The position numbers and the translations under genes are program-made. A stretch of DNA of 34,182 nucleotides from Thiomargarita sp. GTDB lineage: Bacteria; Pseudomonadota; Gammaproteobacteria; Beggiatoales; Beggiatoaceae. The notes beneath the pieces were generated by a model. The model was given only the letters and a program-made list of their open reading frames with translations, did not search any database and was not told where the DNA came from. Positions 28,992 through 34,182 of the stretch are shown piece after piece. The stretch covers positions 1-34,182 of the forward strand of contig DYPD01000035.1 in NCBI GenBank assembly GCA_020720115.1, in the 5' to 3' direction. Numbering within the stretch: position 1 is the first letter of the stretch; every line of letters begins with the position of its first letter.

Positions 28992-29109
28992 TAGGGTATT
29001 TGCAAAGACTCGGCTATCTTGACTGGAGAAACCGCTAGGAAAAATCCCGTTTGTGGCGGGTTATGGGTATAATTCTGCTTTCAAAATCACAACCTTACCA
29101 GGAGCAACC

Positions 29110-30666
29110 ATGCCAAGTATCCAACGCGCCCTCATCAGCGTTTCTGACAAAAGCGGAATTGTCGAATTTGCCCACGCCTTAAGCGCAAAAGGCGTAGAAA
29201 TCCTATCCACCGGCGGCACTGCCAAATTGCTTGCCGACAACCAAGTACCCGTCACCGAAGTCTCTGATTATACAGGCTTTCCTGAAATGATGGACGGACG
29301 AGTGAAAACCCTACACCCGAAAATTCACGGCGGCTTGCTAGGACGACGCGGCACGGATGACGCGGTGATGGCACAACACGGCATCCAACCCATTGATTTA
29401 GTGGTGGTTAATCTGTATCCCTTCGAGCAAACTATCGCCAAACCCGACTGCGACCTGCCCACTGCGATAGAAAACATTGACATCGGCGGTCCCACCATGC
29501 TGCGCTCGGCGGCGAAAAACCATAAAGACGTGACGGTGGTGGTGGATGCCCGCGACTATGCAACGGTGCTGGAAGAAATGGCGCAAAACGACGGCGCAGT
29601 CAGCGACGCAACCCGTTTTCAACTCGCGCTCAAAGTGTTTGAACACACCGCCCGCTACGACGGCGCGATTGCCAATTATCTCGGTAAACAGCTAGAAGGT
29701 GACGCAGATTTTCCGCGCGCTCTCAGCCTGCAATACCGCAAAGCCCAAGCGATGCGCTACGGTGAAAATCCACATCAAAAAGCCGCGTTTTACGTCGAAC
29801 ACCAACCGCTTGAAGTCAGCGTGGCAAACGCTGTGCAGTTGCAAGGCAAAGAACTGTCTTACAATAACGTCGCCGACACCGATGCCGCACTCGAATGCGT
29901 GAAATCCTTTGAGCAAACCGCTTGCGTTATCGTTAAACACGCCAATCCCTGCGGCGTTGCGGTGGCTGACAGCCTCTTGCAAGCCTATGATCGCGCTTTC
30001 AAAACCGATCCGACCTCGGCATTCGGCGGGATCATCGCTTTCAATCGCGCACTTGATGCACAAACCGCCCAAGCCATCATTGAACGCCAATTTGTTGAAG
30101 TCATAATCGCGCCCGACGTGCTGGAAGACGCAAAACCGATTCTCGCCAGCAAAGCCAATGTGCGCGTGTTGGCGTGCGGATATTGGCAAGCAGCGGTGCC
30201 GGCACTGGATTTCAAGCGTGTCAACGGCGGTTTGTTAGTGCAAGAGCGTGACTTAGGACGCATCACCGAGCAAGAGGTCAAAATCGTCACCCAACGCGCC
30301 CCCACCGCGCAAGAAATGCAAGATTTGATGTTTGCTTGGAAAGTCGCCAAATTCGTTAAATCCAACGCGATTGTGTACTGCAAAGACGGCATGACCATCG
30401 GCGTAGGCGCGGGACAAATGAGCCGTGTCTATAGCGCGAAAATCGCCGGTATTAAAGCCGCTGACGAAAACCTTGAAGTGCGCGGCTCGGTAATGGCATC
30501 CGATGCGTTTTTCCCCTTCCGCGACGGACTTGATGCCGCCGCCGCTGCTGGCGTTACGGCGGTGATTGAACCGGGCGGTTCAGTGCGTGACGACGAAGTG
30601 ATTGCGGCTGCCAACGAACATCAGATTGCGATGGTGTTTACTGGAATGCGGCATTTTCGGCACTAA
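29110..30666 (+). CDS. purH: Bifunctional purine enzyme PurH
   Basis: AICAR transformylase/IMP cyclohydrolase, 518 aa, catalysing the last two steps of IMP synthesis in the cytoplasm. The N-terminal cyclohydrolase (MGS-like) domain shows [45 protein letters not shown] and [16 protein letters not shown]. The C-terminal transformylase carries [27 protein letters not shown] and [21 protein letters not shown]. The ATG at 29110 follows AGGAG; an earlier in-frame start at 29053 would add a non-conserved leader. A TATAAT at 29068-29073 could be its -10 box, though I see no good -35. It is a single-copy housekeeping gene. Confidence 0.97.
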
Positions 30667-30719: not shown

Positions 30720-30735
30720 TGTACGAAAGCCTACA
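30720..30735 (+). promoter_or_regulatory. NifA upstream activator site 1
   Basis: TGT-N10-ACA (TGTACGAAAGCCTACA), an exact match to the NifA enhancer consensus, about 78 bases upstream of the -24 element. Confidence 0.75.
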
Positions 30736-30746
30736 ATCCCTGCTAT

Positions 30747-30762
30747 TGTTGCCTTTAGCACA
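30747..30762 (+). promoter_or_regulatory. NifA upstream activator site 2
   Basis: A second exact TGT-N10-ACA (TGTTGCCTTTAGCACA), 27 bases downstream of the first, about 52 bases upstream of the -24 element. Confidence 0.75.
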
Positions 30763-30805
30763 GCTTAATCTGCATATAACCCTGTGTTTTTATTGAGTTA
30801 TTATC

Positions 30806-30820
30806 TGGAACACAAGTTGC
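30806..30820 (+). promoter_or_regulatory. Sigma-54 (-24/-12) promoter of nifE
   Basis: TGGAACACAAGTTGC keeps the invariant GG and GC at the correct spacing and matches TGGCAC-N5-TTGC with one change. Transcription would start near 30832, about 30 bases before the nifE ATG. Confidence 0.78.
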
Positions 30821-30862
30821 CGTAGCAAACCTAACTCAATAGCTCTATAAGGATTTAACCGC

Positions 30863-32242
30863 ATGAAAGCAAAAGACATTGCTCAATTATTGGATGAACC
30901 CGCCTGTGCGCATAACAAGAAAGAAAAATCCGGCTGCGCGAAAACTAAACCAGGCGCAACGGCGGGCGGTTGTGCTTTTGACGGGGCGCAAATTGCGTTG
31001 CTGCCGATAGCTGATGTGGCGCATTTAGTCCATGGTCCTATCGCTTGCGCGGGGAGTTCTTGGGATAACCGAGGCACGCGCTCGTCAGGACCGACTTTGT
31101 ATCGTTTAGGCATGACGACGGATTTGACGGAACAAGATGTGATCATGGGACGCGGGGAAAAACGCTTGTTTCACGCGATTAAACAAGCGGTTACGGATTA
31201 TCAACCCGCAGCAGTGTTTGTCTATAACACCTGTGTGCCAGCCTTGATTGGGGATGATGTGGAGGCGGTGTGTAAAGCCGCGCAGGAACGCTGGCAAGTG
31301 CCGGTGGTGCCAGTGGATGCGGCGGGTTTTTATGGCACAAAAAACCTTGGCAATCGCATTGCGGGCGAGGCAATGCTGAAATATGTGGTGGGCACACGCG
31401 AACCTGATCCGCTGCCCGCACAGGCGCGTCAAGACATCAAAATCCATGATGTGAATCTGGTGGGCGAGTACAACATCGCGGGCGAATTTTGGCATGTGCT
31501 GCCGCTGCTGGATGAATTGGGCATTCGCGTGCTCTGTACTTTATCTGGCGATGCGCGTTTTCGTGAAGTGCAGACCATGCACCGTGCTGAAGCCACCATG
31601 ATGGTGTGTTCTAAAGCCATGTTAAATGTGGCGCGAAAACTGGAAGAACGCTACCAAATCCCTTGGTTTGAAGGCAGTTTCTACGGTATTACTGACACTT
31701 CGCAAGCATTGCGAGATTTTGCGCGGGTGTTGCAAGATGCAGATTTAGCCGAGCGCACCGAAGCCCTAATCAAGCGCGAAGAGCAGCGCATTCGCGCTCA
31801 GCTCAAGCCCTGGGGCGAACGGCTAAAAGGCAAGCGGGTGTTGCTTTACACCGGCGGCGTTAAATCTTGGTCAGTGATTTCTGCATTGCAGGATTTGGGC
31901 ATGGAAGTAGTCGCCACCGGTACGCGCAAATCTACTGAAGAAGACAAGGCGCGTATCCGCGAATTGATGGGCGAGAATGTCAAGATGCTAGACGAAGGCA
32001 ATCCCAAATTATTGCTGGGCGTCTACCATGAGTACAAAGCCGACATCTTAATTGCTGGTGGGCGCAATATGTACACCGCGCTCAAAGCTAAAATTCCCTT
32101 TTTAGACATTAACCAAGAACGCGAATTTGGCTACGAAGGTTACACCGGCATGTTGGAATTGGTACGGCAATTGGCATTGACCATCGAAAGCCCCATCTGG
32201 TCACAAGTACGCACACCCGCACCTTGGCGTCATTGCCATTAA
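30863..32242 (+). CDS. nifE: Nitrogenase FeMo-cofactor scaffold subunit NifE
   Basis: A 459-aa NifE, alpha subunit of the NifEN scaffold on which the NifB-cofactor matures to FeMo-cofactor. Cysteines sit where the family has cluster ligands: Cys37 (GGCAFDGAQ), Cys62 ([14 protein letters not shown]), Cys124 ([12 protein letters not shown]) and Cys249. Other NifE landmarks are [27 protein letters not shown] and [22 protein letters not shown] precedes the ATG. Two NifA sites and a sigma-54 promoter lie directly upstream. The normal partner gene nifN is not downstream; an unrelated gene on the other strand follows, so nifN must lie elsewhere or be lost. Confidence 0.95.
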
Positions 32243-32412
32243 CCCACGATTTGCTCCGAACGAACCCGACGCGAAGCTCGCACCGTTTGGCGAGACCGAA
32301 CCCTGCATCTCCGCGCTAGACAGCTTTTGCCGCTGTGTCTGCGCGTCGGGCGTTTACAAATCAGAATGCCCACCGACATATCTACATTTTCGACCCTTAC
32401 GCGCTACGCTCT

Positions 32413-32967
32413 TTAGTAAATCCGCGCCACAAAATCCGCCGGATTTTCCAAATAGGCACTATCCCCGGTTGCCTTGATAACAAACAAGCCTTTGTTTTGT
32501 GCCATCTTTTCCGCGCCCGCCTCGGCATTCAAATAAGCCATCGCGCCATAGACGATATTACCCGCATATTCCCGCATCCAGGTTTTGATGTGCGGCAATT
32601 TATCAATAAAACGCTTGACATCATCCGGGCGCAAAGTGGTTTTAACTTCCACAATAATCACCGCCTCGCCGTTTTTAGCAACAATATCCACCTCCCAAGA
32701 ACGCCCTTGATGATTGCCTTTAGCGCGGGTATAGGTATGTTGAACCGGAATGCCACGCTGATTAAAAATCTTGATCAGCGCACCTTCCACCAGAGACTCC
32801 ACCAACTTACCCCATTGGCTGGTAAATAATTTTTCCAGCTTGTTGAGCTTGATGTCGGTTTCTTGGAATTTACGGTCGGTTTCCTGGAATTTACGGTCGG
32901 TTTCTTTAAATAAACGCCACACCTCTTCAAGTGTCGGCGCGGGTTCTGAATGGCTGAGGGTACTCAT
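32413..32967 (-). CDS. DUF3782-like PD-(D/E)XK nuclease-fold protein
   Basis: A 184-aa protein. Residues 10-55 form a heptad coiled coil containing repeated KFQETDR units. The C-terminal part looks like a restriction-endonuclease fold: SWEVDIVAKNGEAVIIVEVKTTLRP supplies the Asp, then Glu-x-Lys motif. This arrangement matches the DUF3782 family, common in filamentous cyanobacteria and sulfur bacteria, with no established function. The start at 32967 follows GGAG; the extension to 33027 is not needed. The + strand ORF opposite it is a shadow. It is convergent with nifE; the 170 bases between them hold no gene I can support. Confidence 0.82.
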   Translation of the reverse strand: MSTLSHSEPAPTLEEVWRLFKETDRKFQETDRKFQETDIKLNKLEKLFTSQWGKLVESLVEGALIKIFNQRGIPVQHTYTRAKGNHQGRSWEVDIVAKNGEAVIIVEVKTTLRPDDVKRFIDKLPHIKTWMREYAGNIVYGAMAYLNAEAGAEKMAQNKGLFVIKATGDSAYLENPADFVARIY

Positions 32968-33010
32968 GGCAAATCTCCACAATTGATATACCAACCAGTA
33001 TAGCACCGGC

Positions 33011-33052
33011 ACAAAAAAACCTGCCAAGTCTTTATGTAGATTTGGCAGGTTT
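33011..33052 (-). terminator. Intrinsic terminator on the - strand
   Basis: Read on the - strand, AAACCTGCCAA and TTGGCAGGTTT form an 11-bp stem with a 14-base loop, followed by a run of seven T. It would end transcripts coming from the TIR-domain gene before the DUF3782-like gene. Confidence 0.75.
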
Positions 33053-33487
33053 GGTGTAGTAAAACAGCAAGCGTCTTGGTTTTATTGGTTGCTTGGCTTA
33101 AATACAGAAAGCGACAGTTCTTTTGTTCTTTCAACAACCCATCGTTTTTTTATAGGTTTAAATTCTTTTTGAGTAGCCCGCGTAGGTCGCATAAGCGATA
33201 GCGTCACTTGTGCTGAGCTTGCGATGCACTGAGCTTGTCGAAGTATGCGACATTCGGAAACTCCGAAATGGCGGATGGCGGCGCACACTTCGACAGGCTC
33301 AGTGCAAGAAAAGACGCGCCATATCCGCCTTACGGGTTGTATCAGGGTATGGATTTGCACAAGCAATTTTGAAGAATTGTTTGAAGAAGCAAGGTAGGAT
33401 GCGGTGAGAAACAAACCACATCAATCACAATATCCCAAACGATGCAATTCCTAACCTCATCGTATCCGACTTTGTTTACGCCAGGCT
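33053..33487. other. Repeat-rich intergenic region with a possible transposase scrap
   Basis: No intact gene is visible in this 435-bp stretch. It holds two GAGCTTGTCGA/GAGCCTGTCGA repeat cores in opposite orientation (33226-33244 and 33285-33305), a GTAGGATGCG-type unit (33394-33428), and a short - strand frame near 33082-33170 containing KKRWVVERT, like the C-terminal end of IS5-family transposases. A 110-codon - strand frame across it is mostly translated repeat and is not supported as a gene. Confidence 0.55.
33201..33310. repeat. Pair of inverted GAGCTTGTCGA-family repeats
   Basis: GCACTGAGCTTGTCGAAGT (33226-33244) and ACTTCGACAGGCTCAGTGC (33287-33305) face each other about 42 bases apart. 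A degenerate TGCTGAGCTTGCGA lies just before the first. These are the only copies I see to the right of cas2. Confidence 0.75.
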
Positions 33488-34182
33488 TTAGCTTTTGAAC
33501 TTTGCCCTTACCATTTTGTCAATTTCATCGGCAAGATTCTTGTAATAACGCTCTCTGATTCCATCAGCAATATCAGTGTCTTCTGCTATTTTATCAAATG
33601 GCATTATTTTGGTTTTTTCAGCAGGCTTGTTGAAACCATAATCTCCATGATAAGGCTTAAAGAACTGTAGTGTTGAAACCTCCTCAAAATGGGTGAAACT
33701 AAAGTCTCTAACCAGCACCGGCATAATGCGATAACCTTCCTGCTTTTTTCTTTGGAAAAAAACCGGCAGTTCCTTTGCGTTAATGAAACGCGAAGCCGCA
33801 AAACTAGCACTGACGAGGAGCAACGCCGCTTGGGTAGTTTGGAGTGAATGATCTATTGCCGCCTGCCACTCATCGCCAAGTATGATGTCTTTATCCGTCC
33901 AAAACTTATAGGTAAAGTCGGCTCTTTGGGTTAAATGTCTGGTTAAACCCTCTACCAGTAATTCACGCAATTCCCGATCTGGACTGGCATAAGAAACAAA
34001 TATATTAATCTCTGACATAAATCTATCCTTGTGATTTTTCTGAATAAAGGATTTAAAATCTTCCACATTCACCCAAACACCGTTGATAGTTTGAATTTGC
34101 CGATTTTGTTTCGGGGCATTTTCTACATGGGTTTTACGCACAAACGCTTCGCCATTCAATGACCATAATTCATCTACGTTAT
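33488..34182 (-). CDS. TIR-domain protein, open at the window edge
   Basis: The TIR domain is clear: INIFVSYASPDRELRELL, FTYKFWTDKDIILGDEWQ, ALLLVSASFAASRFINAKEL, then YRIMPVLVRDFSF. The Glu of NAKEL is at the position of the catalytic glutamate in TIR NAD+-cleaving enzymes. An ATG at 34018, just before the TIR domain, has a good AAGGAT site and would give a 176-aa protein. However, the same frame continues without a stop to the window end with protein-like content (NGVWVNVEDFKSFIQKN), so an N-terminal domain encoded outside the window is likely. Solitary TIR proteins often act in antiphage defence or signalling. A - strand terminator follows. Confidence 0.8.
   Translation of the reverse strand, partial: NVDELWSLNGEAFVRKTHVENAPKQNRQIQTINGVWVNVEDFKSFIQKNHKDRFMSEINIFVSYASPDRELRELLVEGLTRHLTQRADFTYKFWTDKDIILGDEWQAAIDHSLQTTQAALLLVSASFAASRFINAKELPVFFQRKKQEGYRIMPVLVRDFSFTHFEEVSTLQFFKPYHGDYGFNKPAEKTKIMPFDKIAEDTDIADGIRERYYKNLADEIDKMVRAKFKS

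Follow-up and report, generated by a model that had tools for sequence, protein, structure and literature searches.

The window, by which we mean the whole stretch of DNA analysed here, is a complete contig of 34182 bases from a draft genome of Thiomargarita sp., and close to its right end it carries a single nifE gene. The open reading frame at positions 30863-32242 of the plus strand encodes 459 amino acids and scores 719 bits against TIGR01283 in a profile search, where the cut-off is 505.1. The top solved chains for this protein are NifE (9ian and others), with residues 1-455 of 459 aligned, and none of the 246 columns invariant in 12 other Beggiatoaceae NifE sequences is changed in it (the NifE of genome G013, which is incomplete, was left out of this comparison). 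The gene is intact, with its full length and a conserved core.

Neither neighbor of nifE belongs with it. Upstream, at 29053-30666 on the plus strand, lies a purH-like (AICARFT/IMPCHase) gene recognized by Pfam PF01808 and PF02142, which is unrelated to nif and has no relative in the other nif loci compared. The next gene-like reading frame past nifE is convergent (32413-33027, minus strand); it is not nifN, and it matches only weakly to Hjc, DUF4143 and DUF234, families that are nuclease-like or of unknown function. A first-pass annotation of this DNA had described a lone nifE, without an adjacent nifN and followed by an unrelated gene on the opposite strand, and that description is borne out: the reading frame is nifE, the gene after it is as stated, and the genome's other Oxidored_nitro genes, nifN included, reside on other contigs. 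Further downstream of nifE, inverted CTTCGACAGGCTCAGTG-like motifs can be seen by eye at 33170-33330, and a TIR-domain protein is encoded at 33488-34159, at the contig end.

The nifE promoter

Two NifA-type upstream sites, both exact matches to TGT-N10-ACA, precede nifE: TGTACGAAAGCCTACA at 30720-30735 and TGTTGCCTTTAGCACA at 30747-30762. They are followed at 30806-30821, on the plus strand, by a sigma-54 -24/-12 element of the form GG-N10-GC, TGGAACACAAGTTGCC, which agrees with the consensus at 9 of 11 positions. The start site predicted from this element falls near -32 of the nifE ATG, and the two NifA-type sites then lie roughly 85 and 110 bp before the start, the usual distance for NifA. 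Single TGT-N10-ACA sites are common, with 763 in the 3.86 Mb genome. The doubled arrangement was assessed in 600 simulated first-order Markov windows, scored for pairs of sites that precede a GG-N10-GC element (score of at least 8) by 30-110 bp; the mean was 0.003 per 34-kb strand, against one observed on the plus strand and none on the minus strand.

The same arrangement recurs among the relatives. In G001 the nifE gene has the two-site layout: its sites lie at -144 (the position that matches our first site) and -117, followed by the element at -57. Nine of the 13 relatives, including G001, have a counterpart of the second site between -99 and -123 relative to the called nifE start. With Thiomargarita sp. 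counted, a TGT-N10-ACA site lies within 500 bp before nifE in 10 of 14 Beggiatoaceae nifE genes, and so does a GG-N10-GC element; G035 has the element and no site, G022 a site and no element. Neither is found within 500 bp before nifE in G020, G039 and G040, and in these three genomes nifE sits inside a nif cluster. The predicted promoter arrangement is conserved in relatives in the manner of a footprint, and the first-pass claim of two exact sites and a -24/-12 element directly before nifE stands on their presence here, their rarity in simulation and this conservation.

A dispersed set of nif genes and its ancestry

The nif genes of the Thiomargarita sp. genome (G000) form six units on six contigs: nifHD, with nifD behind nifH, on C106; nifK on C139; nifE on C66, the window; nifN-nifX on C104; nifB on C15; and nifL-nifA on C145. 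The four Oxidored_nitro genes, nifD, nifK, nifE and nifN, therefore occupy four separate contigs. The nifHD pair is truly apart from nifK, since opposite-strand genes come after nifD and an ABC ATPase gene comes before nifK. In the profile search nifK, nifE and nifN are open and above their cut-offs, and NifX, at 108.8, falls below its cut-off of 112. All of the genes that the first-pass annotation had proposed to locate (nifN, nifH, nifD, nifK and nifB) were found, none of them on the nifE contig, and its remark that the regulon seems split in this genome was correct, if understated, given six units in which even nifHD is parted from nifK.

Five of the units (nifH, nifK, nifN, nifE and nifB) each have an upstream activator site (UAS) together with a -24/-12-like element, although those of nifH and nifK finish in TTGA and TTGT, not TTGC. 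The nifN gene on C104 has a UAS and a -24/-12 element of its own, and its upstream gene differs from that of nifE. The nifK element, TGGCACGCATATTGT, is much like the nifH element, TGGCACACATATTGA, as if copied (L013:12160-12343 and L015:5557-5700). No UAS occurs for nifL-nifA, either within 450 bp of nifA or in the 700 bp that precede the nifL frame, where one -24/-12-like match lies at -602. In G001, nifN has neither a UAS nor a -24/-12-like element. Several sigma-54 activator-type proteins are encoded in the Thiomargarita sp. genome. From its control sites, the lone nifE is most likely one unit of a dispersed regulon tied to NifA and sigma-54.

The available text of PMC11172852 recognizes 25 genera in Beggiatoaceae, and describes two Albibeggiatoa genomes with nif genes and a third without any. 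Our comparison covered 25 genera of the family, and in 11 of the 14 genomes that bear nif genes nifE is separated from nifN; the two are adjacent in G003, G039 and G040. The clearest example is G005, a single 4.27-Mb contig on which nifE and nifN are found at 339959 and 800656, about 459 kb from each other. Two genomes counted as separated, G013 and G020, have nifE at a contig end; in the former the gene preceding nifN is not nifE, and in the latter the contig with nifN has no Oxidored_nitro match ahead of that gene. In G017, G020 and G035, nifN was assigned from an Oxidored_nitro match with a NifX-like match beside it. Among the ten genomes with nifE outside a nif cluster, direct nifE neighbors are common only to G004 and G005, which belong to the same genus. 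One small gene follows nifE in G001 and G035, with relatives near nif genes in G003 and G005; it has no Pfam match and a weak HAD-type match.

Eight of the relatives (G001, G004, G005, G015, G017, G022, G034 and G035) resemble Thiomargarita sp. both in having nifE away from nifN and in carrying a NifA-type site, a -24/-12 element or both before nifE, and G001 also shares the separation of nifHD from nifK. Six of these, G001, G004, G005, G015, G022 and G034, differ from Thiomargarita sp. in having no stop within the listed matches to nifHDKEN and to full-length nifA; G017, whose nif genes are likewise separated, has a TGA inside nifA. Beyond the family, the expectation that nifN normally adjoins nifE is widely borne out: of 80 named NifE loci, one of which (L017) belongs to Beggiatoaceae, nifN lies no more than 600 bp downstream in 67, there is too little sequence in two, and it is lacking at that distance in 11, in seven of which it occurs further off on the same locus. 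The nifEN operons of Proteobacteria such as Azotobacter, Stutzerimonas and Methylomonas have the NifE protein in common with Thiomargarita sp., with 81-85% identity among such named loci. Control of such operons by NifA and sigma-54 is a further likeness to what the upstream sites predict for the Thiomargarita sp. gene, whereas the Thiomargarita sp. nifN occupies a different contig and has a promoter of its own. In the titles and abstract openings that we searched, there was no report of separated nifE and nifN in Beggiatoa, or of a miniature inverted-repeat element (MITE) in nifB.

The history of nifK, nifN and nifD does not follow that of RpoB. The RpoB tree joins Thiomargarita sp. with G003 (100/100), a pairing that NifK (AU p 7e-6), NifN (0.002) and NifD (0.04) do not share; in the NifD, NifK and NifN trees, built by a quick method from 11, 11 and 10 rows, the nearest row to Thiomargarita sp. 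is G001. The NifE tree is poorly resolved around the Thiomargarita sp. row. G003, of the same genus, keeps nifHDK together and nifEN together. The conflict with RpoB and this different layout indicate exchange or replacement of nif sets within Beggiatoaceae. RpoB was not found in the G001 assembly, so the species position of that genome rests on genus labels. Within one genus, then, G003 and Thiomargarita sp. possess nif sets of different ancestry and layout. The possibility that the nifHD contig is a contaminant was considered and rejected, as NifD, NifK and NifN of Thiomargarita sp. all fall next to G001.

Damage to the nif genes and the MITE

Several of the other nif genes are not in the state in which we find nifE. 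An in-frame TGA interrupts nifH where nine of ten relatives' loci have Leu or Met (the tenth, G039, could not be read), and another interrupts nifD where all ten have Ala or Gly; both rest on one assembly. The nifL gene is frameshifted: its matching segments switch from one frame to another within residues 436-441 on the G001 frame, and its pieces cover positions 6-374 and 386-494 of TIGR02938. The nifA gene is 75% identical to the G001 NifA frame over its first 126 positions and then runs into a MITE, so that it ends after about 124 codons; past the MITE, on C145, a different gene begins that is not nifA. No NifA match above the family cut-off was found in the assembly. Such a match is present in 12 of the 13 other nif-bearing genomes (two of them with an internal TGA), and G035 has a 495-bit partial match. 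NifA-family matches above the cut-off also occur in nine Beggiatoaceae genomes without nif structural genes above theirs, and the family is therefore not confined to nif.

The nifB gene lies in two frames around an identical MITE. Its halves cover residues 12-324 and 323-492 of the G001 NifB, and the cut falls between the radical-SAM and NifX-like domains; the front piece scores 523.7 by itself, against a cut-off of 343.65. According to the available text of PMC5715403, Klebsiella oxytoca NifB without its NifX-like domain is functional and gives higher nitrogenase activity. That engineered NifB-deltaC shares the radical-SAM part without the NifX-like domain, and the difference here is that the cut is natural and was made by a MITE. 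Given the activity of NifB-deltaC and the score of the front piece, the insertion need not be null, and by this analogy the NifB front piece of Thiomargarita sp. may still work. Overall, of the Mo-nitrogenase set HDKENB, K, E and N are open, H and D carry a TGA and B is split, so that not all six are open.

No raised loss of constraint is seen in NifH or NifD, with changes at 2 of 204 invariant columns in the former and 2 of 308 in the latter. In view of this lack of excess, the damage would be recent. Elsewhere in the genome, stops inside matches number 0 of 40 for ABC_tran (among the matches listed), 0 of 21 for radical-SAM, 1 of 11 for the NifA family and 0 of 1 for rpoB, a rough contrast in which most entries are domains and not whole genes, and in which two of the 73 matches come from the nifA and nifB pieces themselves. 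Three relatives show stops or frame breaks in nif genes as well, G013 (nifN and nifA), G017 (nifA) and G040 (nifK), and part of the damage in Thiomargarita sp. may accordingly be ordinary assembly noise.

The element in nifA and nifB is 93 bp long and non-coding, with inverted ends TATAGT(A/C)GGATTACT and TATA at both edges in all 28 copies examined (29 loci were inspected, of which L173 and L174 are one copy). At least 40 copies, 99-100% identical, are present in the genome (for example L123:3059-3151 and L124:6283-6375), a lower bound in that 40 of 89 first-look candidates were scored. With its inverted repeats, TA target duplication and many near-identical copies, it is an IS630-like MITE. 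No full-length match was found in the 13 relatives, where one partial match, at 84%, occurs in G017, and Rfam returned no family in L123:1500-3800. The transposase search gave one broken DDE_3 (IS630-type) remnant, about 90 bp after the MITE on C48 (L187) and the sole DDE_3 match among those listed for this genome.

At one inner position the MITE reads G in 25 of the 28 copies and A in three, and the three A-form copies are those in nifA, in nifB and on C124, where the element lies inside an apparently single kinase gene, between its PAS_2 part and its GAF/HisKA part. A G-form copy cuts an ammonium-transporter/histidine-kinase fusion gene on C79 (L182:1501-1593), with one flank matching positions 1-210 of the Amt profile and the other 207-397. 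When the element is removed, an open frame of at least 150 codons crosses the emptied site in 8 of 28 cases, of which that at nifA is a chimera with the next gene. In nifB and in the transporter-kinase gene both flanks belong to the interrupted gene itself, indicating that insertions of the MITE into genes are real. In the available text of PMC4853749, MITEs interrupt metabolic genes of Ca. Thiomargarita nelsonii, one of them in hupL; those elements, in a giant sulfur bacterium, are likewise TATA-ended and numerous, but they are a different element, and here it is nifA, nifB and an ammonium-transporter/kinase gene that have been struck.

A nif regulon probably in decay

Overall, we favor, as rather more probable than the alternatives taken together, the explanation that these genes made up a dispersed, NifA/sigma-54-tied regulon that has recently begun to decay, and that nifE survives in it silent or nearly so. 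The window would hold one transcription unit of that regulon. The scattered nifHD, nifK, nifE, nifN-nifX and nifB units, all with control sites in place, would have been induced together in trans by NifA, and NifE, to judge from its family, would build the FeMo-cofactor scaffold by pairing with a NifN encoded on another contig. Recent decay would then account for the nonsense codons in nifH and nifD and for the frameshift in nifL, and a burst of MITE movement for the loss of nifA beyond some 124 codons and the division of nifB between its domains, while nifE, nifK and nifN retain intact coding sequences and promoters. The nifE promoter is intact and its activator probably gone, and the gene itself most likely survives with little or no expression, outside any working nitrogenase pathway. 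The first-pass annotation had implied live NifA/sigma-54 control, and this is not supported in a genome that yields no NifA above the cut-off, a nifA cut at a MITE, and stops in nifH and nifD. More tentatively, we might be observing a six-unit regulon, with NifA/sigma-54 sites as the sole tie among five of its units, as it is dismantled in real time, in which a single MITE burst hit genes for nitrogen control and assembly (nifA, nifB and the ammonium-transporter/histidine-kinase fusion), leaving a naturally NifX-less NifB and orphan but intact nifE, nifK and nifN.

At the same time, the genome is a draft of 185 contigs with an estimated contamination of 4.36%, and it is possible, if on balance unlikely, that the dispersed regulon works, that the stops, the frameshift and the cut in nifA are assembly or consensus errors, and that an intact NifA missing from the assembly induces nifE. 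Contigs C139 and C100 begin 53 bp before a MITE, which suggests that these elements may disturb assembly, and since the gene past the MITE at nifA is a different one, a genuine nifA could have been truncated where two identical 93-bp copies were wrongly joined, and its remainder may lie in missing sequence. The intact promoters and NifE, NifK and NifN sequences suit a working regulon as well, as do the similar nif breaks in G013, G017 and G040, and the remaining nif sequence shows no visible relaxation of constraint, which counts against decay. Errors would nonetheless have to explain three kinds of damage in four nif genes, and a clean MITE insertion in nifB besides, against one stop in the 73 matches listed; the insertions in nifB and in the transporter-kinase gene, flanked on both sides by their own genes, are real.

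Two narrower alternatives fare worse. The first-pass annotation had named a contig join error at 32243 as grounds for refutation. In that case nifE would truly stand beside nifN and have been misjoined near that point. The window contig does stop 1.9 kb past the end of nifE, in a fragmented genome. However, nifN has a UAS, a -24/-12 element and an upstream gene of its own, and with nifE and nifN apart in 11 of 14 genomes, one of them in a single contig, such an error is very unlikely. That the in-frame TGA is read through or recoded, leaving nifH and nifD functional, seems hardly credible: TGA is the only stop involved and both genes belong to one operon in which the rest of NifH and NifD is well conserved, but the residues replaced differ (Leu or Met in one, Ala or Gly in the other), and TGA terminates 9 of the 23 long reading frames in the window, as would an ordinary stop.

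Should recent decay of a dispersed regulon prove correct, there is a practical warning, in that counts of nif genes based on homology would score this Thiomargarita sp. genome as that of a nitrogen fixer. More generally, the organism would provide an example of a nif regulon held together by shared control sites with hardly any clustering of its genes, and one in which loss has been caught at a stage where the regulator and the catalytic genes have been struck while the assembly genes and the promoters are still intact.
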